From an uncultured Bacillota bacterium (GTDB lineage Bacteria; Bacillota_I; Bacilli_A; Culicoidibacterales; ZOR0006), in assembly GCA_945956935.1 (NCBI GenBank), contig CAMFJD010000003.1:1-64000 (forward strand): a stretch of 64,000 nt of DNA, read 5' to 3'. Made by a program: the position numbers and the translations under genes. The notes below the pieces were generated by a model, which worked only from the letters and a program-made list of their open reading frames with translations, was not told where the DNA came from and ran no database searches. Positions 1,830 through 51,301 of this stretch are shown piece after piece (position 1 is the stretch's first letter; each line of letters begins with the position of its first letter).

Positions 1830-2947
1830 TATTTACTCACCTCTACTTTCTGTTGTCGTTGTTTTTTTATCCGTTTGAGTGTCCATTGATCGGCGAAACG
1901 TTCAAATAAATAACCTGATGCAACAAATAAAAGAATCAATGAACTAATAATTTCAACAATTTCAGCAGGGACTTGTGCAAATGCTTGCATTGAAGCAGCG
2001 CCTGCCTTTAATCCCCCTAATAAGAGTGCTGAGAAAAACACTCCAACACCAGTACTATTTCCGAGCAAAGCAACCGCAATTCCATCAAATCCGATTGCAT
2101 AATAACCAGTTAATCCTTGTTCAACATCTATCTTACCTAATGAGATCATATAAATCGCACCTGCAACCCCTGCAAATACTCCAGCTATTGCCATTGATAA
2201 CGCAATATTACGATTCACTTTCATTCCGGCATACTGTGCTCCACTTGGATTTAAACCAACTGCTCGTAATTCGTATCCAAATGTTGTTTTATTAATGATG
2301 AATGAAAATACAATACATGCAATAATAGCAATAAAAATACCAAAGTTTATACGTGAATTGGGAAATAAAAATGCTAGTATTTCAGTAAAAAATGGCACTT
2401 TTAATGTTGCAGTTGATTGCATTGCCATTGATTGAGCAGGATTCATTGGATTCGGAATAAAATTCAAAATCCAATAGTTTACAAGATATAGAGCTGTATA
2501 ATTTAACATAATTGAAACAACTACTTCGTGTACTCGATATCGTGCTTTTAAAATACCTGGAATAAACCCCCAAACAAACCCTGCTGCACCACCTGCGACA
2601 ATCATTAATGTTGTATGTAATAGTGCTGGTAATTCCACATGAATCCCAATAATAACTGCAACAAGTCCACCTATTGCCAATTGTCCTGGTGCACCAATAT
2701 TAAATAAACCGGTACGAAAAGCAAAAGCAACGGCTAAACCAGTTAAAATAATTGGTACTGTCCGGAACAACCACTCTCCCATATAGTACTGATTTCCAAA
2801 TACACCACTAAATAGTGCACCAAACGCCTCAATTGGGTTTCTTCCTGATGCAATGATAATAAGCGCACCAATCACAAAAGCCGATAGGATTGACAACATG
2901 GGGATTAACACTTTCCGCCAATTAATACGTGCTATAAGCTTATCCAT
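1829..2947 (-). CDS. nupP: nucleoside ABC transporter permease, NupP type
   Basis: A 372-residue permease, partner of nupQ in the importer. It has an N-terminal transmembrane segment (about residues 13-33), the family motif FRTGLFNIGAPGQL near residue 77, and the coupling loop RAVGLNPSGAQYAGM. The start ATG overlaps the end of the nupO coding sequence by eight bases, and an SD (GGAGG) lies within nupO, indicating translational coupling. Together with nupO and the BMP lipoprotein it forms a complete Gram-positive nucleoside importer of the YufNOPQ/NupNOPQ type. Confidence 0.9.
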   Translation of the reverse strand: MDKLIARINWRKVLIPMLSILSAFVIGALIIIASGRNPIEAFGALFSGVFGNQYYMGEWLFRTVPIILTGLAVAFAFRTGLFNIGAPGQLAIGGLVAVIIGIHVELPALLHTTLMIVAGGAAGFVWGFIPGILKARYRVHEVVVSIMLNYTALYLVNYWILNFIPNPMNPAQSMAMQSTATLKVPFFTEILAFLFPNSRINFGIFIAIIACIVFSFIINKTTFGYELRAVGLNPSGAQYAGMKVNRNIALSMAIAGVFAGVAGAIYMISLGKIDVEQGLTGYYAIGFDGIAVALLGNSTGVGVFFSALLLGGLKAGAASMQAFAQVPAEIVEIISSLILLFVASGYLFERFADQWTLKRIKKQRQQKVEVSK

Positions 2948-4472
2948 GGTTTACTCCTCCTTCATACTGTCCACCAGCCATTAAATATCCAAGTTCTCGT
3001 TCATTTGTATCCTTAGCATCCAAAACTGCAACAATTTTTCCTTCACAAATAACTGCGATGCGATCTGATACATTCAAAATCTCGTCTAATTCAAATGAAA
3101 TCAATAAAACTGCACGATTTTTATCGCGTTCTTCGATAAGTTTACTATGAATGAATTCAATTGCTCCAACATCTAAACCACGTGTTGGTTGTGATGCAAT
3201 TAACAATTTTGGTGAGCGATCAACTTCGCGAGCAATAATTGCTTTTTGTTGATTTCCACCTGACATTGATCGTGCTGATGAGTGAATCCCATGAGCACTA
3301 CGAACATCAAATTCATCTGTTAAACCTGTCGCATAATCCATAATCGCTTTATCATTTAAAATTCCGTATTTGGAATACGGTTGTTCATAATAATTTTGCA
3401 GCACCATATTTTCCGATAAAGTAAAGTCTAAAATTAATCCATGTTTATGACGGTCGGCAGGAATGTGCCCAATTCCTGTTTGTGTCCGTTTTCTTACGGG
3501 TAGTTTCGTAATATTTTTTCCATTCAGTGTGATATTTCCGGCATAAATCTTACGCAATCCGGCAATTGCTTCGACAAGCTCTTCTTGACCATTTCCATCA
3601 ATTCCGGCAATTCCAAGAATCTCACCTTCTTGAATTGTTAAATTTAGCCCATCAACAGCATGAAGTCCACGAGCATCTTTGACTGTTAAGTTTTCAATAC
3701 TTAAAATATCAGCTCCAGGATTTGATGGACCTTTTTCAACAATGAAGTTCACTTCACGTCCAACCATCAATTCTGCTAATTGATTTTCATTCACATCTGC
3801 AACATTAACGGTATCAATATATTTCCCACGGCGGATAACTGTACAACGATCAGCAACTTCCTTAATCTCTGCCAGTTTATGCGTAATTACAATAATTGAT
3901 TTTCCTTCTCTGACAAGCCGCTTCATTATACTCATTAATTCCGTGATTTCTTGTGGTGTTAATACTGCAGTAGGTTCATCAAAAATAAGAATATCAGCAT
4001 GACGATACAACATTTTTAAAATTTCAACCCGTTGTTGCATACCAACACTAATATCTTCAATTTTAGCATTTGGATCAACATTTAAATTGTATTTTTCAGA
4101 TAACTCCGCTATTTCTTGCGCTGCTGTCTTCAAATCAATTTTACCATTCTTTACTTGCTCCATACCTAAAATAATATTTTCTGTCACCGTAAAGTTGTGC
4201 ACGAGTTTAAAGTGTTGATGCACCATTCCAATACCTAATTCATTAGCAAGATTTGGATTGGTAATATTCACTTTTTCTCCACGTACACGAATTTCTCCAC
4301 CATCTGGCGAATACAGTCCAAAAAGAACACTCATCAGTGTTGATTTACCTGCCCCATTTTCACCTAATAAGGCGTGTATTTCTTGCGGGCGTAACTGTAA
4401 AGTGATGTTATCATTAGCGACAAAACCACCAAATTCTTTACGGATGTCTAGCATCTCAATTACGTACTCCAT
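2940..4472 (-). CDS. nupO: nucleoside ABC transporter ATPase with two NBDs, NupO type
   Basis: A 510-residue protein with two fused nucleotide-binding domains, as usual for sugar and nucleoside importers. The first domain has Walker A GENGAGKST (residues 37-45), a signature segment SVGMQQRVEIL and Walker B LIFDEPTAVL. The second has the degenerate Walker A typical of this family (GIDGNGQEE), the signature SGGNQQK and Walker B LLIASQPTRGLD. It energises uptake through NupP and NupQ. It starts 307 bases downstream of the BMP lipoprotein gene, with a terminator in the gap, so lipoprotein and ATPase/permease levels are probably uncoupled. The SD is AAGGATG. Confidence 0.92.
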   Translation of the reverse strand: MEYVIEMLDIRKEFGGFVANDNITLQLRPQEIHALLGENGAGKSTLMSVLFGLYSPDGGEIRVRGEKVNITNPNLANELGIGMVHQHFKLVHNFTVTENIILGMEQVKNGKIDLKTAAQEIAELSEKYNLNVDPNAKIEDISVGMQQRVEILKMLYRHADILIFDEPTAVLTPQEITELMSIMKRLVREGKSIIVITHKLAEIKEVADRCTVIRRGKYIDTVNVADVNENQLAELMVGREVNFIVEKGPSNPGADILSIENLTVKDARGLHAVDGLNLTIQEGEILGIAGIDGNGQEELVEAIAGLRKIYAGNITLNGKNITKLPVRKRTQTGIGHIPADRHKHGLILDFTLSENMVLQNYYEQPYSKYGILNDKAIMDYATGLTDEFDVRSAHGIHSSARSMSGGNQQKAIIAREVDRSPKLLIASQPTRGLDVGAIEFIHSKLIEERDKNRAVLLISFELDEILNVSDRIAVICEGKIVAVLDAKDTNERELGYLMAGGQYEGGVNHG

Positions 4473-4779: not shown

Positions 4780-5853
4780 CTAGTAAATTTTTGCCTCTTG
4801 AACTGGGAAATCAGTACTTGTTTGCACACTGATTTCACCTGACTTCATCGATTCTGTTGTTTTACCAACTAAATCTAATACTGCTTGATCAGTAATGTTT
4901 GGGTTTTCTGTAGGTAAACCTACTGCATCTTCATTAATTCCAAGTACTTGTACTTGTCCAAATGCTGCCGTTCCTTCTTTGATTGCTTCCAACGTTTCAT
5001 TTACAGCAATCCCTACATGTTTCACTGCTGATGTTAATACAACAGATTTTCCATCTTCGTATAGTCCATCTTCATACTGATCACGATCAACACCAATTAC
5101 CCAAGCATCTGTTCCTTGAGTCACTAATTCTTTTGCTTGCTCAATAACACCTGTTCCAACTCCACCTGCTGCTACGAAAATGATATCCATTCCACTTGCA
5201 TACATTGCTGCTGCTTTTTGTTTTCCAATTGTTGTATCAGTAAAACTATTTGCATATTGAACATCTACTTTAATATCTGGGTTTACAGCTTTCGCTCCTT
5301 GAATATATCCAGCCGCAAAGTTCATAACTGCCGGAAGAGGTACTCCACCGATAAATCCAATTGTATCTTTTTGTGTTGTTGAAGCTGCTACTACACCTGC
5401 AAGGTATCCAGCTTGTTCTTCACGGAATAAGATTGATGCAACATTATCTAAAGAAATTTCTTCTTCATTTACTGTTGGTGTTGCATCTAAAATAATATAT
5501 TTCGTATTTGGATTCGCTTGTGCAGACACAGCCATTCCCTCTGAAAACTTAAATCCAGGTGCAACAACTACTTGATTTTGTGCGGCTGACGTATCTAAGT
5601 TTGGTTGAATATCACTATCTTGTTTTGTTTCAATGTATCCTGTTTTCACACCTTCATTTGCAGCCTTGAATGCCTCAACACCTTCCCAAGATCCTTGGTT
5701 AAATGATTTGTCATTGATTCCACCTGTATCAGTTACTAAACCGACTGATGCTACCGGTAAATCAGATTCACCGTCTGTTGTTGAGCTTCCACAAGCTGTT
5801 AACCCTAATGTAAATACTAGAGCTAAAGAAGTTAATGCTAATAATTTCTTCAT
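4780..5853 (-). CDS. bmpA: BMP-family nucleoside-binding lipoprotein
   Basis: A 357-residue substrate-binding lipoprotein (basic membrane protein/NupN family) that captures nucleosides outside the cell for the NupOPQ importer. The signal peptide ends in the lipobox LTAC, with lipidated Cys21. Family segments are VTDTGGINDKSFNQ near residue 40, FIGGVPLPAVMNFAAGY around residue 170 and WVIGVDRDQYEDG. The SD GGAGGT precedes the ATG. A clear promoter lies upstream and a terminator downstream. A diverged paralogue lies immediately upstream (6148-7191) on the same strand. Confidence 0.92.
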   Translation of the reverse strand: MKKLLALTSLALVFTLGLTACGSSTTDGESDLPVASVGLVTDTGGINDKSFNQGSWEGVEAFKAANEGVKTGYIETKQDSDIQPNLDTSAAQNQVVVAPGFKFSEGMAVSAQANPNTKYIILDATPTVNEEEISLDNVASILFREEQAGYLAGVVAASTTQKDTIGFIGGVPLPAVMNFAAGYIQGAKAVNPDIKVDVQYANSFTDTTIGKQKAAAMYASGMDIIFVAAGGVGTGVIEQAKELVTQGTDAWVIGVDRDQYEDGLYEDGKSVVLTSAVKHVGIAVNETLEAIKEGTAAFGQVQVLGINEDAVGLPTENPNITDQAVLDLVGKTTESMKSGEISVQTSTDFPVQEAKIY

Positions 5854-6147: not shown

Positions 6148-7191
6148 CTATTTCATATTTTCATCTTTAGTTATTTCATCGATTATTTGGATTTCACCTG
6201 TTGCAAGTTTTTGTTCAATATCGGATACTCTCTCAATATTTCCTTGAAATGAAAAATTGGGGTTTATTTTCGTAACACCAACTGACTGAGTCGTAATATC
6301 TAAGATGTTCATTTGACCAAATTGAGCTGTACCATCTAAAATATTCGCAACTACTTCAGCTATTGCACGATCAAAATGTTTGACAGCAGATGTTAAAACT
6401 ACAGATTGCCCATCAGTAGTATATATCCCCTGTTCATATTGATCACTATCAACACCAATAACCCAAACCTTTTGACCACTTTTTACCAATTCTTTAGCTA
6501 CTTCAATTACTTGTTGGTTACTCTTTCCATTCGCACCAAAAACAATGTCACAATTTTTTTCATATAATCTTTTCGCTTTTTCATAACTTTGTACATCATC
6601 TACAAAGCTATTCGTATAATCGATTACAACTTCAATATCGTTCTGAATAGCTTTTGCTCCTTGAACATAACCTAATTCAAATTTTTTTACTGGATCAATC
6701 TGTTCACCACCAAGAAAACCAATTGTATTTGTCTTAGTTGTAATTGCAGCAATAACACCTGCTAAATAACCTGCTTGTTCTTCACGAAAATCAATCGCAA
6801 TAATATTTGGTAACATTTCATCAAGCTCACCATCTAAGAAAATATAGCCTGTTTCAGGATTTTCTTTAGCAGATTCTACAATAGCCTCTGAAAAGTTCAT
6901 ACCTGGCACAATAACAATGTCATTTTTCTTCGCTTGTTTATTAATATTTTCTACACGCTGACTTTCTGACTCAGTCACACTATAGTCTAAACGAACCATA
7001 TGGAATTCGCGCAGATCTTGAATACCATTCCATACAATGTTGCTAAATGATTGTCCATACAATCCATCCGTATCTGCGATAAACCCGACACTTGGTATCA
7101 CTAAATCACTCACTATTATCTTTTGACTTATATACATACAAACCACACAAATACCAACAATTATCAATATTTTTACAACGATTTTTCTCAT
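6148..7191 (-). CDS. diverged BMP-family paralogue, membrane-anchored
   Basis: A 347-residue BMP-fold protein paralogous to the neighbouring nucleoside-binding lipoprotein. Shared segments include TIGFLGGE, VQGAKAI, WVIGVDSDQYEQG and VVLTSAVKH. The N terminus is a hydrophobic segment whose cysteines lie in VGIC and VVC contexts, without the small residue required at -1, so a canonical lipobox is missing and the protein is probably held by a signal anchor. The ligand-loop segment that reads GGINDKSFN in the lipoprotein is DGLYGQSFS here. I chose the ATG at 7191 because AAGGGGG sits 8 bases before it; the first ATG at 7209 has no SD. It could be a second nucleoside receptor or a sensor, comparable to Med-like BMP proteins of Bacillus. 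Confidence 0.75.
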   Translation of the reverse strand: MRKIVVKILIIVGICVVCMYISQKIIVSDLVIPSVGFIADTDGLYGQSFSNIVWNGIQDLREFHMVRLDYSVTESESQRVENINKQAKKNDIVIVPGMNFSEAIVESAKENPETGYIFLDGELDEMLPNIIAIDFREEQAGYLAGVIAAITTKTNTIGFLGGEQIDPVKKFELGYVQGAKAIQNDIEVVIDYTNSFVDDVQSYEKAKRLYEKNCDIVFGANGKSNQQVIEVAKELVKSGQKVWVIGVDSDQYEQGIYTTDGQSVVLTSAVKHFDRAIAEVVANILDGTAQFGQMNILDITTQSVGVTKINPNFSFQGNIERVSDIEQKLATGEIQIIDEITKDENMK

Positions 7192-7237
7192 GCCCATTGC
7201 CCCCTTCATGCCCTAGGTGCTATACTATTCACATTTT

Positions 7238-30011: not shown

Positions 30012-31673
30012 TTAGTTTCCTGGTACATAATCAGCCCATTTGAAGAATCCTGTGTTTCCTCCATAAGCTGAGTATACAATCCCAGTTAAACCTTCTTGTT
30101 GTACAAATGCACGTCCTGATTGCATTAATGGAATCATCGCTTGATCTTCTTCAATCACTAATTTTTCCATTTCAGCAAATTTTTCCATACGCTCAGTCAT
30201 TTGTCCCTCAGCATTTAGTGCCATACCTTCTGCATATAATGCATCTGCTGCTGGATTTGAATATTTTCCATAATTGTGGCTATCTGTTGATTCGGCAATT
30301 ACCATCATTGTTGATGGATCTGCGTAGTCTGGTCCCCATCCTTGCCATGCCATTTCAAAGTCACCTGCTGCTAATTGATCAAAGTAGCTTGCCGATGGAA
30401 TTTTACGTAATTCAACTGTTACACTTGGTAATGCTGTTTGAATTTGTGATTGTAACACTTCCATTAAACGCGTGTTACGTGGTGACTCAACAAATGAAAT
30501 TTCAACTGTTGCTGAATTTTGCCCTGTTGCTGCATATGCCGCATCTAAGTACTCTTGTGCTTTTGCTGCATCTGCCGTTGTTGAAAATTGACCAGCAAAT
30601 GATTGCTCGCGGAAATCAACTCCATTGTCATCAGCTACTACACCTTGTGTAATTAAATAATTTGCTGGGAATGATCCGTTTTTGTACACTTGATTTGCAA
30701 TAACATCACGATCAATTGCAGTTGATAACGCTTTACGGAAATCAGCATTTTGCAACATTGGATTTGTATTATTGTTATTTTGGTTTACAGAAAGATACCA
30801 GATTGATAAATCTTTTACCGTTCCAAATCCGGCGTTATCTTTATAGCGGTCATAATAATCTCCTGATACATTCATGCGTGTTAATTCACCTGATTCAAAT
30901 AACTGTACTGTAGTTGCTTCATCTTGAACAACACGGAATGTTACTGATGGCAAGCTTACTGTTTCAGCATCCCAATATGTATCATTTTTTGTTAAAACTA
31001 ATTGTTGGTCTTTATCCCAAGCTGTAATTGTGAATGGACCATTTGATAATAATGTATCTGCAGATGTTCCATATTTATCCGCACCTACACTCGTATAAAA
31101 CGCTTCATTCACTGGGAAAAATGTTGGGAATGACAATAATGATAAGAAGAATGGTGTTGGTTCCGCTAATTTTACTTCTAATGTTTTATCATCTACTGCA
31201 GTAACATTTAATGGTCCAGCATAATCAGTTGTTCCGGCACCTGATCCACCCTCAATATATGACATAAATGATGCATATCCTGCTGCTGTTTCTGGCTTAG
31301 CAACTGTATTCCATGCAAAAACAAAATCATCTGCTGTTACCGGTGTTCCATCTGACCATTGTGCATCACGTAAATTAAAAGTATACGTTAATTGATCATC
31401 ACTTACCGACCAATCTTTTGCAATTGCAGGCTCAATAATAGTTCCTTCCGCATTGTAACGAACTAACCCTTCCATAGAGTTTTGTAAAATACCTAATTCT
31501 GATGAAGTTGACTCAGTCAAATTGTTTAATTTTGTAAAGTCTGATACAACAGGTAATGTAATTGGTTGTGATCCTTCTGCCGTCCCACCATCAGTTGCTC
31601 CACCACATGCTGCGAGTGATACAGTTAATGCTGCTGTTGTCGTAACAGCAAAAATGCGCTTTAAGTTCTTCAT
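30012..31673 (-). CDS. oppA: OppA-type peptide-binding lipoprotein, copy 1
   Basis: A 553-residue solute-binding lipoprotein of ABC family 5 (SBP_bac_5). The signal peptide ends in LAAC with lipidated Cys23. Characteristic parts are the TYTFNLRDAQWSDGTPVTADDFVFAW segment near residues 95-120, the GPF(T)-type strand and the WGPDYADPSTMM motif that closes over bound peptide. Substrates are probably oligopeptides. No permease or ATPase genes are adjacent, so it must use an importer encoded elsewhere. SD AGGGGG. It is a close paralogue of the next gene, sharing most of its length and its promoter. Confidence 0.9.
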   Translation of the reverse strand: MKNLKRIFAVTTTAALTVSLAACGGATDGGTAEGSQPITLPVVSDFTKLNNLTESTSSELGILQNSMEGLVRYNAEGTIIEPAIAKDWSVSDDQLTYTFNLRDAQWSDGTPVTADDFVFAWNTVAKPETAAGYASFMSYIEGGSGAGTTDYAGPLNVTAVDDKTLEVKLAEPTPFFLSLLSFPTFFPVNEAFYTSVGADKYGTSADTLLSNGPFTITAWDKDQQLVLTKNDTYWDAETVSLPSVTFRVVQDEATTVQLFESGELTRMNVSGDYYDRYKDNAGFGTVKDLSIWYLSVNQNNNNTNPMLQNADFRKALSTAIDRDVIANQVYKNGSFPANYLITQGVVADDNGVDFREQSFAGQFSTTADAAKAQEYLDAAYAATGQNSATVEISFVESPRNTRLMEVLQSQIQTALPSVTVELRKIPSASYFDQLAAGDFEMAWQGWGPDYADPSTMMVIAESTDSHNYGKYSNPAADALYAEGMALNAEGQMTERMEKFAEMEKLVIEEDQAMIPLMQSGRAFVQQEGLTGIVYSAYGGNTGFFKWADYVPGN

Positions 31674-31749
31674 ATAAATTGCCCCCTTGTGTTCTTCTTT
31701 CTTTCGACTACAATAGTTTGCCTTCAAAACTTTTGTAGTATTGTTTTGA

Positions 31750-32003: not shown

Positions 32004-33668
32004 TTATTCAGTTACATATGATGCCCATTTATAAAACCCTGTATTTCCGCCAAATGCCGAATCTACAATATCAGATACACCAGGTTGTGTTACATATGAA
32101 GAGGCTGATTGCATTATAGGAATGATTGGTTGATCATCAATCAATACTTTTTCTGCTTCAGCAAATTTTTCAAAACGTGCTTTCACCTCATCACTTCCAG
32201 ATAATGCTAAACCTTCAGCATATAATGCGTCATATTCTGGATTGTTATATTTCCCATAGTTATGACTATCAGTTGACGTGAAAATTGATAACATTGTTGA
32301 TGGATCAGCATAATCAGGTCCCCATCCTGCCCAAGCGATTTGATAATCTCCAGCTGCTAATTGATCGTAATAACTTGCTGATGGTAATTTACGCAATTCA
32401 ACTGTTAATCCAGGCAATACTTCTTGAAGCGTTGCTTGCAATACTTCCATTAAACGTGTATTTCGTGGTGATTCAACAAACGAAATTTCAATTTTTGCAC
32501 TATCTTGATTTGTTTCACTTAATGCTTTTTGGAATAATTCTACTGCCTTATCTTTATTTTGTGTTGAGTCGAATTTACCTGCGAATGATTCATCACGGAA
32601 GTCAGTACCACCATTGGCAACTAATCCTTTTGTCACAATATAATTCGCTGGAAACGATCCATTTTTATATACTTGTGATGTCACAAGTTCACGATCAATG
32701 GCATATGATAATGCTTGACGGAAATTTTTATTCGCAACAATTGGATTCGTATTGTTATTATCAACATTTAATGTCAAATACCAAATAGTTGTATCTTCAT
32801 CAGTATAAAAGTTTTCATTATCTTTATACTGGTCATAGTAATCACCTGATACACCCATACGAGTTAATTCCCCTGTTTCGAACAATTGAATACGTGTCGA
32901 TTCATCTCCTACGACTTGGAAAGTTACCGATGGAACTTCGACAACATCTGCTTCCCAGTACTTATCATTCTTACTGAACACTAACTGTTGATCACGATCC
33001 CACGTTGTTAATTCAAATGGACCATTTGATAACAATGTGTCTGGTGATGTTCCGTATTTATCAGCACCTACACTTGTGTAAAATTCTTCATTTACTGGAA
33101 AGAATGTCGGGAATGTCAATAAAGATAAGAAGAATGGTGTTGGTTCTGATAATTTCACCTCTAATGTTTTATCGTCCACTGCATTCACACTTAGTGGACC
33201 AACATAATCAGGTGTTCCCGCCCCTGTTCCACCGTCAATATACGTCATAAATGATGCGTAACTTGCAGCTGTTGCTGGATCTGCTACTGTGTTCCATGCG
33301 AATACAAAGTCATCTGCCGTTACTGCCGTTCCATTTGACCATTCTGTGTCACGCAAATGAAATGTGTACGTTAATTGATCATCACTGATTTCCCATTTTT
33401 CTGCCATTCCTGGTTCAATTTCTTTTCCATCTTGGCTATATCGAACAAGGCCTTCCATAACATTTTGTGCAATCCCTAATTCTGATGATGTCGATTCTGT
33501 CAAATTGTTAATTTTAGTAAAGTCATTTTGAACAGCTAATTTCATTGGTTGTGATGTACCAGAATCCCCTGTTCCACTACCACTATTTGATGTACTACCG
33601 CAGGCTGCTAACGAAACAGTTAGTGCTAATGATGTTGTCACGGCAAATAATTTCTTCGTATTTTTCAT
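32004..33668 (-). CDS. oppA: OppA-type peptide-binding lipoprotein, copy 2
   Basis: A 554-residue paralogue of the previous gene with lipobox LAAC (Cys23), the same SBP_bac_5 fold and matching motifs (TYTFHLRDTEWSNGTAVTAD, WAGWGPDYADPSTML). The two proteins differ throughout at scattered positions, so the duplication is not recent at protein level. ATG 33668 has AGGGG upstream. A promoter of the same structure lies about 90 bases upstream. Both copies are transcribed separately. Different peptide ranges or sensing roles are possible; the sequence does not decide. Confidence 0.9.
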   Translation of the reverse strand: MKNTKKLFAVTTSLALTVSLAACGSTSNSGSGTGDSGTSQPMKLAVQNDFTKINNLTESTSSELGIAQNVMEGLVRYSQDGKEIEPGMAEKWEISDDQLTYTFHLRDTEWSNGTAVTADDFVFAWNTVADPATAASYASFMTYIDGGTGAGTPDYVGPLSVNAVDDKTLEVKLSEPTPFFLSLLTFPTFFPVNEEFYTSVGADKYGTSPDTLLSNGPFELTTWDRDQQLVFSKNDKYWEADVVEVPSVTFQVVGDESTRIQLFETGELTRMGVSGDYYDQYKDNENFYTDEDTTIWYLTLNVDNNNTNPIVANKNFRQALSYAIDRELVTSQVYKNGSFPANYIVTKGLVANGGTDFRDESFAGKFDSTQNKDKAVELFQKALSETNQDSAKIEISFVESPRNTRLMEVLQATLQEVLPGLTVELRKLPSASYYDQLAAGDYQIAWAGWGPDYADPSTMLSIFTSTDSHNYGKYNNPEYDALYAEGLALSGSDEVKARFEKFAEAEKVLIDDQPIIPIMQSASSYVTQPGVSDIVDSAFGGNTGFYKWASYVTE

Positions 33669-34143
33669 ATAATTAAACCCCTTATATTTCAAATTTTACC
33701 ATCCCTACACGTTCTCTCCTTTTTGCTAGAATGTTGTTCGGTTGTGGTATTGATTTGAATTATATGAAGATAAATACCCTTTGTAAACGGTAAAAAGCAA
33801 AAAAAAGCGTTTGTTTTTAAAAAATAAAGTATAATTTAAGGTTTTTTAACAAGAAAACACTTTCCTTTTTTGTTAATTGCACAATAATAAATTATTTTCA
33901 TTTAATTTTTTATCATTGTTTTGATAATTTATTATCACCTTTTATTATTATCACTTAAGAGTCCTATAGCCTTCATACTTCTATCGATGTTTACTCGGTG
34001 TACTTACTTGCCATTTCTTACAAATTTAGTATCTTTGTTCTCATTTAATATTCAAATCAAAATTCGATTGAGTATAACTTAAAGTGATTCACAACACTCT
34101 CAAAATCACCCGACCCAAAGACTTTAACAATTCCATTTGGCAG
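33669..34143 (-). other. 475-base region between rnpB and oppA copy 2
   Basis: The right part (from oppA) contains the copy 2 leader and promoter. The remainder (about 33800-34143) is very AT-rich, with no credible gene or structured RNA that I can recognise. Confidence 0.5.
33759..33787 (-). promoter_or_regulatory. promoter of oppA copy 2
   Basis: On the minus strand TTTACA and TATAAT are separated by 17 bases, followed by TCAAATCAATACCACAA, which is shared with the copy 1 promoter apart from two positions. Confidence 0.75.
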
Positions 34144-34189: not shown

Positions 34190-34587
34190 TTATGTCTAGT
34201 TGTACCTCATAAGCCATGTTCTGTCCTACTGTACTCCAATCGGCTATCACCTCGTACCTGTAGCGATAATCATTTATCTTTAGTATTTCTACTAATCCCC
34301 TCGCCGTTCTGAGTTCCTTTGAGGCGGACTCCCCTACCAAATTTTGGGTTTCTCACTCGCGGGGTTTACCAACGTTTCATCGTTTCACTTTCGTAAAACG
34401 CTCGTCTCTGTGGCACTTTATAACTACTCGACCATAGTATTTTACCTTAGGTTATTTCGTTGCCGTCAAATCTAACTTTGCCTTAGCTTATGTCTTCACT
34501 AAGCACGAACACTACAAACATCACAGTTTGTGTGAGCATGGACTTTCCTCTACACTTCTAAAAAGTACAGCGATTATCTCAGTACTG
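34190..34587 (-). ncRNA. rnpB: RNase P RNA, type B
   Basis: The catalytic RNA of RNase P, about 400 nucleotides. Conserved segments in order on the minus strand are GATAATCGC, GAGGAAAGTCCATGCTC (P4/J region), GTAGTGTTCGTGC, AAAGTGCCACAG, GGTAAACCCC, GAGAAACCCAAA with TTTGGTAGGGGA, GTACGAGGTGAT and the 3' block ACAGAACATGGCTTA. Order and wording match the Bacillus-type molecule closely. Ends are approximate: the 5' end is placed from the -10 at 34593-34598, and the 3' end by alignment ahead of the terminator. Location next to gpsB is as in Bacillus. Confidence 0.95.
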
Positions 34588-48322: not shown

Positions 48323-48667
48323 TTATTCTTCAATAATAACAAAAGCCGTCGCGTGAATCGTATCGTGTGTTAATGATAGATGAACCTTCCGATTCGCCTG
48401 AGTTTGACCATGCAAATACACAAAAGGTGCCCCTAAGTCATCATTTAAAATACTTAAATCTTGGAACTTCACTTCACCAATTCCTGTCCCACATGCTTTG
48501 GCGTATGCTTCTTTTGCTGCAAAACGACCAGCTAAAAATTGTTGTTTATGCAGCAATGTCATTTTTGTCATAAAGATCCTTTGCTCTTGTTCTGTCAATA
48601 TTTTTTTTGCTAATCGCTCCGTCATTCGTTCTAGTTCAACGCTATCAACTCCGATTCCAACAATCAT
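48323..48667 (-). CDS. acpS: holo-[acyl-carrier-protein] synthase
   Basis: A 114-residue enzyme that transfers 4'-phosphopantetheine from CoA to ACP Ser36. Family motifs IGVDSVELERM with Asp8 and FAAKEAYAKACGTG (Glu/Lys active site), VHLSLTHD. It forms a trimer in relatives. Its ATG overlaps the TAA of the upstream gene by one base (TAATG), so translation is coupled to the HMA-fold protein. The acpS-alr order is widespread in Bacillota. Confidence 0.95.
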   Translation of the reverse strand: MIVGIGVDSVELERMTERLAKKILTEQEQRIFMTKMTLLHKQQFLAGRFAAKEAYAKACGTGIGEVKFQDLSILNDDLGAPFVYLHGQTQANRKVHLSLTHDTIHATAFVIIEE

Positions 48668-48882
48668 TACAATACAACAACTCCTACTTTAGTAATAGCA
48701 TCTAAAATTTGTTGTCCCGAATGTAGGGTGTCATCGTCATATGTCACTGTTACTGTTTGCAAGCTATCTGATACACTTGCTTTCGTTACACCAACAACAC
48801 TGTGTAAAGCCGCGGTTAATAATTCAACTTGAGTATGGTTATCTATTCCTTCAACAACTAAAATTAATGTTTTTGCTTTCAT
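48667..48882 (-). CDS. HMA-fold protein lacking the CxxC metal motif
   Basis: A 71-residue beta-alpha-beta-beta-alpha-beta protein with the layout of CopZ-type heavy-metal-associated domains. In the usual GMTCxxC loop the aligned residues are G12-I-D-N15-H-T-Q18, so both metal-binding cysteines are gone. A copper-chaperone role is therefore unlikely; an interaction or sensing role is possible. It is first in an acpS-alr transcript with its own promoter, with acpS translation coupled to it. SD GAGGAAA. Confidence 0.72.
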   Translation of the reverse strand: MKAKTLILVVEGIDNHTQVELLTAALHSVVGVTKASVSDSLQTVTVTYDDDTLHSGQQILDAITKVGVVVL

Positions 48883-48911: not shown

Positions 48912-48940
48912 ATTGTACGACTTTTTCTAGAAAGTTTAAA
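48912..48940 (-). promoter_or_regulatory. promoter of the HMA-acpS-alr operon
   Basis: On the minus strand TTTAAA and TACAAT are separated by exactly 17 bases, 30 bases upstream of the first ATG. Confidence 0.7.
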
Positions 48941-48961: not shown

Positions 48962-49717
48962 TTAATATTCACTTTCATACATCCCTAAATAGATGTATGC
49001 ACTCACTTTAATGAGCACATATACATAAAATAGTTGCAAGAGTACTTGAACTGCTGAAATCGATAAATATTCCGCTTGCTCATCTAGTGGTGTCAATGAA
49101 AGTGGAACAATCGGAATGCTTGGAAAAATAGCTGCAATCATTTGAAATATCCAGCTCACAACCAGAAAAAAAGCAATCGCAATTCCTACAAGGATACATA
49201 ATTTCCACCACCAACTTAAATGGCTCATAAACTGAGAACGAAAAAGCATATAAACAATTGTCACAATCCAGGTCATTCCTAATGATGTCAACACTGTCAA
49301 GCAAAAAGCCAGTACCCAATACACAATATTTTCACCTATTTGAAAATCAAACATTTGAACATAAGATGTAAATAATGGTAACCTATGTACCGCAATACTA
49401 ACTAATATTGTTGTAACTCCCGCAATGCTCATATACATAAGCATAAAGAAGCATGTCAATTTTCCAAAAAGATGATCAACTTGAAAGTGTGAGCCAATTC
49501 GATGTAAAAAGCGAATCATTCGAATCATCATAACAGGAAAAAGCAATATTGGACATAGCAATAAAAATGCAAATAAACTTCCTAATACAAAGATAACGGT
49601 TGTATCTTTCAAAAATGAAAAAATACTACTCAGTAAAATCGTCAAGATTAAATACATGGCACTTCCATAAAAAAATGGTTTGTTGACTTCCAATTGCATT
49701 TCTAACAGTGTTTTCAT
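48962..49717 (-). CDS. six-helix membrane protein of the relQ operon
   Basis: A 251-residue integral membrane protein with about six hydrophobic helices and no recognised motif. The family is not identified. Its ATG overlaps the stop of the preceding ABC gene by four bases (ATGA), so the two are translationally coupled and it is the probable membrane partner of that ATPase-like protein. It ends only 22 bases before the HMA-acpS promoter and no terminator hairpin is visible between them, so read-through into acpS is possible. Confidence 0.7.
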   Translation of the reverse strand: MKTLLEMQLEVNKPFFYGSAMYLILTILLSSIFSFLKDTTVIFVLGSLFAFLLLCPILLFPVMMIRMIRFLHRIGSHFQVDHLFGKLTCFFMLMYMSIAGVTTILVSIAVHRLPLFTSYVQMFDFQIGENIVYWVLAFCLTVLTSLGMTWIVTIVYMLFRSQFMSHLSWWWKLCILVGIAIAFFLVVSWIFQMIAAIFPSIPIVPLSLTPLDEQAEYLSISAVQVLLQLFYVYVLIKVSAYIYLGMYESEY

Positions 49718-50403
49718 TCATACACCTCCCGATACTTATCAATAATAGTAGTATCCCCTTTACTTTGCCATTGTGTCAAATTATACTCACGATACATCCG
49801 ACCACCATCAAAAAAAATGACATGTTCAAATATTTGATCAGCTAATTCAATATGATTTGTACTAATAATAACTGTCGCATCTTGTTGACGATACGTTTGT
49901 AAAATACGTACAATCCGTTCTCTACTTACAAAATCAATGCCTGCAAATGGTTCATTCAACAAATACAATTTTGCCTTCCTACTCAAAGTAAGAGCAATAA
50001 GGACACTTGCTTCCATCCCTCTTGTTAAACTGCTTAATGGCCACTGCAAATCAATCATTAATTGTTCACACAAGATTTGACATTTTTGATGATCAAAATC
50101 GGAAAATAGTTGCTGATACATGAATAATACTGTTGCAATATTACTGTCACTTGGAAACATCCGCAAATGTTCTAAATAAGCAATTTCTTGCCGATGACTA
50201 TAGTGAAGTGGTGTGTGATTCAACACAATTTTACCGTTATTTGGTTGCATTGTCCCTGCAATCAAACGTAAAATAGTTGTTGTTTCTAAACTGTTTGGTC
50301 CAAGTAATCCAACAATTCCTGTTGTTTCAATCATAAATGAACACCGAGATAAAATTGTTTTATGATACACTTTCTTCGTCACACACTCAAATTTAATGTT
50401 CAT
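49714..50403 (-). CDS. ABC-ATPase-like protein with degenerate Walker motifs
   Basis: A 229-residue protein with the fold and order of an ABC nucleotide-binding domain. The Walker A position reads GPNSLETTT (residues 35-43) instead of GPNGxGKTT: the Lys is Thr41 and the Gly is Glu40. Walker B reads LYLLNEPF with Asn150 for Asp, though Glu151 is kept. The signature is LTRGME (126-131, in SSLTRGMEA) and the H-loop His184 is present. I checked the reading in the nucleotide sequence (codons AGT TTA GAA ACA ACA ACT). ATP hydrolysis is therefore doubtful. ATG 50403 has AGGAG 7 bases upstream, inside the end of the previous gene (11-base overlap). Confidence 0.8.
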   Translation of the reverse strand: MNIKFECVTKKVYHKTILSRCSFMIETTGIVGLLGPNSLETTTILRLIAGTMQPNNGKIVLNHTPLHYSHRQEIAYLEHLRMFPSDSNIATVLFMYQQLFSDFDHQKCQILCEQLMIDLQWPLSSLTRGMEASVLIALTLSRKAKLYLLNEPFAGIDFVSRERIVRILQTYRQQDATVIISTNHIELADQIFEHVIFFDGGRMYREYNLTQWQSKGDTTIIDKYREVYE

Positions 50404-51301
50404 GACTATACTCCTGTTCGATTTCTCCATTTAAAAATTGTTCAACGAATTTTGCACATTGAAGCGGCTGTTCGCTCAATGGTAAATGCCCTGCTTGTTC
50501 AACGAAAACAATTTTCGACTGTGGAATTGTCCATTTAACAATCTTCCCCTTCTTTATATCATATAAAGGATCATCCATTCCCCACATAAGTAATGTATTT
50601 TTCGCCTGTACATGCGTAAGAAAACTTTCGGAAAAAAATAGACTGTATTGTTCATACCAGCTTGTTATTGCCAGTTCAAATTTCTCGCTTTGTTCACAAA
50701 TCGTTTTCATCCATGTTTTAAAATCATAATGCTTTAATAACGTTGGTTCTGAGAAATACAAGTACATCAATTGTTCGAAATCAGCTTGTGTTTTCACAAT
50801 ATATGGTGACTGTTTTCCATTTTCAATCATTTGGGTATAGAGTGTTTCTGTTTTATTCGTTCGTAAATGCGTTAAATTGGTTAGAACAAGTTTCTCTTCG
50901 GAAACTAAATTTGCATGCATAAGCAATAATGTTGCACCAAACGATTGACCAATAAACGCCTCAATTGGGTATTTTGCTCGTAATTGCTGGCAAAGTTGCT
51001 CAAAAAAGCTCACTTGCCCTTCTAATGTCCAGTACAATTCATCATTACTTGAATCCCCATGTCCAAGCCAATCAATAACCAAAACACGATATTTTTTTCC
51101 AAATGCTAATGCAAATGCTGCTAAATTTTCCTTTACTTCATATAATCCTGGAAGACAAACAAGTACCGGCAAATCAGTTTGAGCATTCGTCAAAAAATAA
51201 TGAATTGATTGATTAAATACTGCTATTTCGTATACTTGTAATGCCGGTTGCTTTCGAAATCGTTGTTTATATAAATGCTTTTTTTCTTTTCCTTTTAACA
51301 C
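50393..51301 (-). CDS. alpha/beta hydrolase with GTG start
   Basis: A 302-residue serine hydrolase. Oxyanion/HG region LVCLPGLYEVKEN, nucleophile Ser120 in GQSFGA, acid Asp243 or Asp244 (GMDDPLYD) and base His272 (AGHLPLSEQP), all in the proper order. The start is GTG 51301 with GGAGG 7 bases before it. It starts 2 bases after relQ stops and overlaps the ABC-like gene by 11, so it belongs to the same transcript. The substrate is unknown; a role with the alarmone synthase or membrane protein cannot be seen directly. Confidence 0.8.
   Translation of the reverse strand: MLKGKEKKHLYKQRFRKQPALQVYEIAVFNQSIHYFLTNAQTDLPVLVCLPGLYEVKENLAAFALAFGKKYRVLVIDWLGHGDSSNDELYWTLEGQVSFFEQLCQQLRAKYPIEAFIGQSFGATLLLMHANLVSEEKLVLTNLTHLRTNKTETLYTQMIENGKQSPYIVKTQADFEQLMYLYFSEPTLLKHYDFKTWMKTICEQSEKFELAITSWYEQYSLFFSESFLTHVQAKNTLLMWGMDDPLYDIKKGKIVKWTIPQSKIVFVEQAGHLPLSEQPLQCAKFVEQFLNGEIEQEYSHEH

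Follow-up and report, generated by a model that had tools for sequence, protein, structure and literature searches.

The window, i.e. the whole stretch of 64,000 nucleotides from an uncultured Bacillota bacterium that was analysed here, contains an intact gene for a stand-alone ABC nucleotide-binding domain (NBD) in which the Walker A motif, the Walker B aspartate and the H-loop histidine are replaced, and the altered motifs are conserved in a second species of the same genus. We propose that this domain, termed pseudo-NBD in the following, is probably a vertically inherited canonical NBD that lost its ATP site and was reselected as a nucleotide-independent structural or regulatory subunit of a 2+2 ABC-2-like complex.

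Loss of the ATP site

ABC proteins are defined by their use of ATP, which in the ABC stroke is clasped by Walker A of one NBD together with the signature of its counterpart. The product of the pseudo-NBD gene (49714..50403, minus strand) scores 49.4 bits against the PF00005 (ABC_tran) profile (gathering cut-off 25), and its best NCBIfam scores, those for PmtA and LptB, are both far under the cut-off. It has neither a Walker A of the form GxxGxGK[ST], nor the Asp and Glu pair of Walker B, nor the H-loop His. Walker A, G35-T43, reads GPNSLETTT (50275..50301, minus strand, as are all motifs of this gene), with Gly38 replaced by Ser, Gly40 by Glu and Lys41 by Thr, and Walker B, L146-F153, reads LYLLNEPF (49945..49968), with Asp150 replaced by Asn and Glu151 kept; on all of this the sequence and an alignment with 41 canonical relatives agree with the initial annotation. 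The signature region, which had likewise been described as kept, is so only in part, as the motif LTRGMEA (L126-A132, 50008..50028) retains Gly129 but has Thr instead of Ser127; Met130 is a frequent variant in the family (14 of the 41 canonical relatives). His184, taken initially for the H-loop histidine, is off by one: in the alignment, with which HMMER against 1vpl concurs, the His column of the H-loop segment STNH (S181-H184, 49852..49863) is occupied by Asn183, and the column of His184 holds Leu, Gln or Met in each of the 41 relatives. Asp157 of the D-loop is kept. In the canonical relatives Gly40, Lys41, Asp150, Glu151, Asp157, His183 and Ser127 are each invariant (41/41) and Gly38 is present in 40/41, a few rows of this column table being one locus entered twice. 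Without Lys41, the two glycines, Asp150 and the H-loop histidine, and with a Glu at position 40, the protein would be very unlikely to bind and hydrolyse ATP normally.

All complete NBDs that were examined elsewhere in the source genome (about 34 loci out of 60 or so PF00005 matches) contain G-x4-GK[ST], except for the C-terminal half of an RbsA-type fused ATPase. This ATPase is encoded within the window (2940-4472, minus strand), the degenerate Walker A of its C-half, GIDGNGQ, being a known pattern. A pattern back-translated from GPNSLETTT was found in only 2 of 392 genomes of the phylum, i.e. in the source genome (G000) and in ZOR0006 (G001).

AlphaFold, supplied with a shallow alignment of five sequences, predicted the pseudo-NBD with a mean pLDDT of 64 and values <50 for the stretch after Walker A, and a Foldseek search with this model had ABC NBDs, TM0544 and LptB among them, as hits at a TM of about 0.6. 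With so few sequences and no canonical NBD as control, we draw no conclusion on the shape of the P-loop.

Conservation of the altered motifs within the genus

The Firmicutes bacterium ZOR0006, which belongs to the same genus, has an orthologue that is 67% identical and lies in a preserved gene order. It was the only close relative in a scan of genome contigs; viral contigs contained no relative, and a mobile origin or a phage relative of the pseudo-NBD was thus rejected. The initial annotation had named a homologue with the same genomic context and a normal GxxGxGKT as the observation that would speak against its reading; the homologue with this context in ZOR0006 carries the identical altered motifs.

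In this comparison, which is confined to two genomes, 28 of 28 motif columns are identical as compared to 67% overall; in a test that pools chosen motifs, 0 of 20,000 shuffles reached 28 identical columns. The longest identical run, 16 residues, is not exceptional when taken alone (p 0.10). Within residues 32-47, 11 of the 16 codons differ silently and there is not a single amino-acid change. Over the whole gene dN is 0.25 and dS about 1.6, i.e. close to saturation, which renders the dN/dS ratio rough. The dN values of the neighbouring genes for Tex (0.28) and the RelA-like protein (0.27) are similar, and the membrane partner of the pseudo-NBD evolves faster (0.55). Judging by these substitutions purifying selection acts on the altered site, the direction being clear although the ratio is rough.

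Ancestry of the pseudo-NBD

The canonical relatives have a single NBD gene, which overlaps with the gene for a six-helix protein behind it, an arrangement that matches the pseudo-NBD locus, and several of their loci have a small GntR-type regulator in front, as judged by appearance. In a tree of 42 NBDs the pseudo-NBD pair joins a canonical NBD of the same order, G002a (98/79), and together they fall within a 37-row subfamily (100/99) of such NBD and six-helix pairs. The stem of the pair measures 2.6 changes/site and its tips 0.27 and 0.32, so that the placement depends on a long branch and the exact sister is uncertain. G002a and the pseudo-NBD are reciprocal best hits, the best match of G002a in the source genome being the pseudo-NBD gene, and sequence kinship to the canonical relatives extends down to an E of 1e-46 (G002a). 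Single ancestry, with the catalytic site lost once, is supported by the tree, in which the changes look like a single burst in the genus ancestor that gave way to constraint.

Gene neighbourhood and membrane partner

The reading frame of the pseudo-NBD is intact and encodes 229 residues from an ATG at 50403. A Shine-Dalgarno-like AGGAG (50411..50415, minus strand) is located 7 nt 5' of this ATG and the ZOR0006 orthologue begins at the equivalent residue, which backs the start codon; the intact frame and the good Shine-Dalgarno sequence noted at the outset were thus confirmed. In transcription order the neighbourhood, all on the minus strand, starts with the RelA-like gene (51933-51304), followed by a gene for an alpha/beta hydrolase (PF00561; 50393..51301), whose orthologue occupies the equivalent place in ZOR0006, the pseudo-NBD gene and, 3' of it, the gene for the coupled membrane protein (251 aa, 6-7 hydrophobic helices; 48962..49717), and then by the genes for an HMA-like protein of 71 aa (48882-48667), AcpS (48667-48323) and Alr (48305-47202). 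The hydrolase gene overlaps the start of the NBD gene by 11 bp, and 4 bp (49714-49717) are shared by the NBD and membrane genes. Such overlaps are the usual mark of translational coupling, and the hydrolase and NBD genes are probably on one transcript. The membrane gene is separated from the HMA-like gene at its 3' side by a gap of 79 bp, which harbours a promoter-like TTTAAA-17-TACAAT (48912-48940, minus strand). As the GTACAAT portion of this element recurs in the corresponding gap of ZOR0006, a new transcript may begin 5' of the HMA-like gene. A second NBD gene is absent from the locus in both the source genome and ZOR0006.

Several features of the neighbourhood and the window are observations in their own right. 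The hydrolase (50393-51301) has a likely triad, Ser120-Asp244-His272; in the ZOR0006 hydrolase (L002:2171-3073) the His272 column holds Gln (HASQLP), i.e. catalytic loss may have begun there. The HMA-like (CopZ-type) protein (48667-48882) is devoid of the metal-binding cysteines of CxxC, as is its ZOR0006 orthologue (62% identical), and is, by these residues, a second degenerate yet conserved protein close to the pseudo-NBD. Farther away, the window contains an ordinary bacterial RNase P class B RNA (34205-34585, minus strand) and two pairs of adjoining genes that are apparent tandem duplications, one for PnrA/Bmp-like substrate-binding proteins (4780-5853 and 6148-7209, minus strand) and one for oligopeptide-binding-like proteins (30012-31727 and 32004-33692).

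In size, helix number and coupling the membrane partner of the pseudo-NBD matches the canonical partners. Kinship to them is not detectable at the sequence level, and a canonical partner, L003, fails equally. No convincing relative of the membrane protein outside the genus was found in 395 genomes of the class, and the source genome contains its gene in a single copy. The motif [GAS]Y[LFI]xxx[LI]P[VIY] ([GAS]YLTxTLPV), which lies in the first cytosolic loop of 12 of 13 canonical partners (among L004-L017), is missing from the partners of both the pseudo-NBD and G002a. As this loop is the expected site of NBD coupling, the interface between NBD and membrane protein may have been remodelled. The AlphaFold model of the membrane protein (pLDDT 48) is unusable.

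Proposed function of the pseudo-NBD

We suggest that the ancestor of the pseudo-NBD was the canonical NBD of a small bipartite ABC-2-like exporter, consisting of NBD and six-helix protein, and that descent was vertical. The ATP site would have been lost on the branch to the genus, and selection would then have re-fixed the NBD as a nucleotide-independent subunit. As the former active-site motifs are fully conserved in the genus, this face is, in the simplest interpretation, still in use, and its most probable role is that of a permanent interface between two NBDs. Two pseudo-NBDs would most likely form a constitutive homodimer under two copies of the membrane protein (2+2), the shared complex being suggested by analogy, and this dimer would serve as structural or regulatory cytosolic base of a complex that works without an ATP-driven stroke. 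The complex might act as scaffold, sensor or gated channel, perhaps serving the co-encoded hydrolase. The initial proposal of a pseudo-ATPase that acts together with the membrane protein coupled to it is supported by the motifs conserved in ZOR0006; its regulatory role is something we only infer. More tentatively, both ATP sites may have been discarded and the NBD dimer reselected as a constitutive nucleotide-free base, converting an exporter into a non-ATP machine, e.g. a channel, a sensor or a hydrolase platform. On the other hand, the kept Glu151, Asp157 and Gly129 are not obviously needed by a purely structural NBD and could allow residual nucleotide binding.

Kept residues might also fit an asymmetric heterodimer, in which the pseudo-NBD would be the degenerate half and a canonical NBD encoded elsewhere the other, as in TM287/288, TmrAB, TAP or ABCG5/G8. 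Heterodimerization is a known route by which degenerate NBDs persist (PMC7756269), Glu151 and the signature Gly129 are in place, and the source genome provides dozens of canonical, unlinked NBDs. However, the locus has no second NBD in either species, the nearest NBD in the source genome is just 24-26% identical to the pseudo-NBD, the membrane gene has no second copy and the canonical relatives have one NBD gene, making such a pairing unlikely. Similarly doubtful is that the remodelled P-loop (SLETTT) binds a non-canonical ligand or that ATP is hydrolysed slowly via Glu151: the conservation of all 28 old active-site columns within the genus and the presence of Glu151 and Asp157 would agree with it, but Lys41, both P-loop glycines, Asp150 and the H-loop His were lost together, and Glu40 places a negative charge at the would-be phosphate position. 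Finally, the many lost consensus residues and the very long stem branch could be taken as signs of decay, early decay having been considered initially, or of a strain mutation or sequencing error, all of which we rejected as highly improbable, for the independently sequenced ZOR0006 has the same replacements, neither reading frame is broken, most codon changes in the motif are silent and the dN does not exceed that of housekeeping genes nearby.

Comparison with known systems

A stand-alone NBD in which Walker A, the aspartate of Walker B and the H-loop histidine disappeared together, and which has been frozen since, is a natural test of a nucleotide-free ABC complex, and canonical relatives of the same order allow a comparison of the states before and after the loss. 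It is also a warning, as annotation pipelines will label the pseudo-NBD 'ATP-binding protein'. Our literature search for stand-alone pseudo-ATPase NBDs yielded nothing relevant, which is weak evidence of absence.

The locus resembles the bipartite ABC-2-like exporters of the YtrB/YhcG and PmtA/PmtC type in Firmicutes, in which the gene for an NBD of ~230 aa overlaps the next gene, which encodes a six-helix protein of ~250-290 aa. In contrast to these, the pseudo-NBD lacks the ATP-site residues, the loop motif [GAS]YLTxTLPV is missing from its membrane partner and the locus has no adjacent GntR/YtrA-like regulator. With the heterodimeric exporters (TM287/288, TmrAB, TAP, MRP1, CFTR, ABCG5/G8) the pseudo-NBD shares that selection keeps an NBD site that hydrolyses abnormally (PMC7756269). 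In these exporters a degenerate site is combined with an active one and can retain ATP for minutes (PMC7756269), whereas in the pseudo-NBD Walker A itself has disappeared and the locus offers no partner NBD. The RbsA/NupO-type fused ATPases, one of which lies within the window as described above, are likewise bacterial proteins with an NBD devoid of the Walker A lysine (PMC11466899). In these, the degenerate C-half is fused to an active N-half (PMC11466899), whereas the pseudo-NBD is a stand-alone gene in a locus without any intact site.
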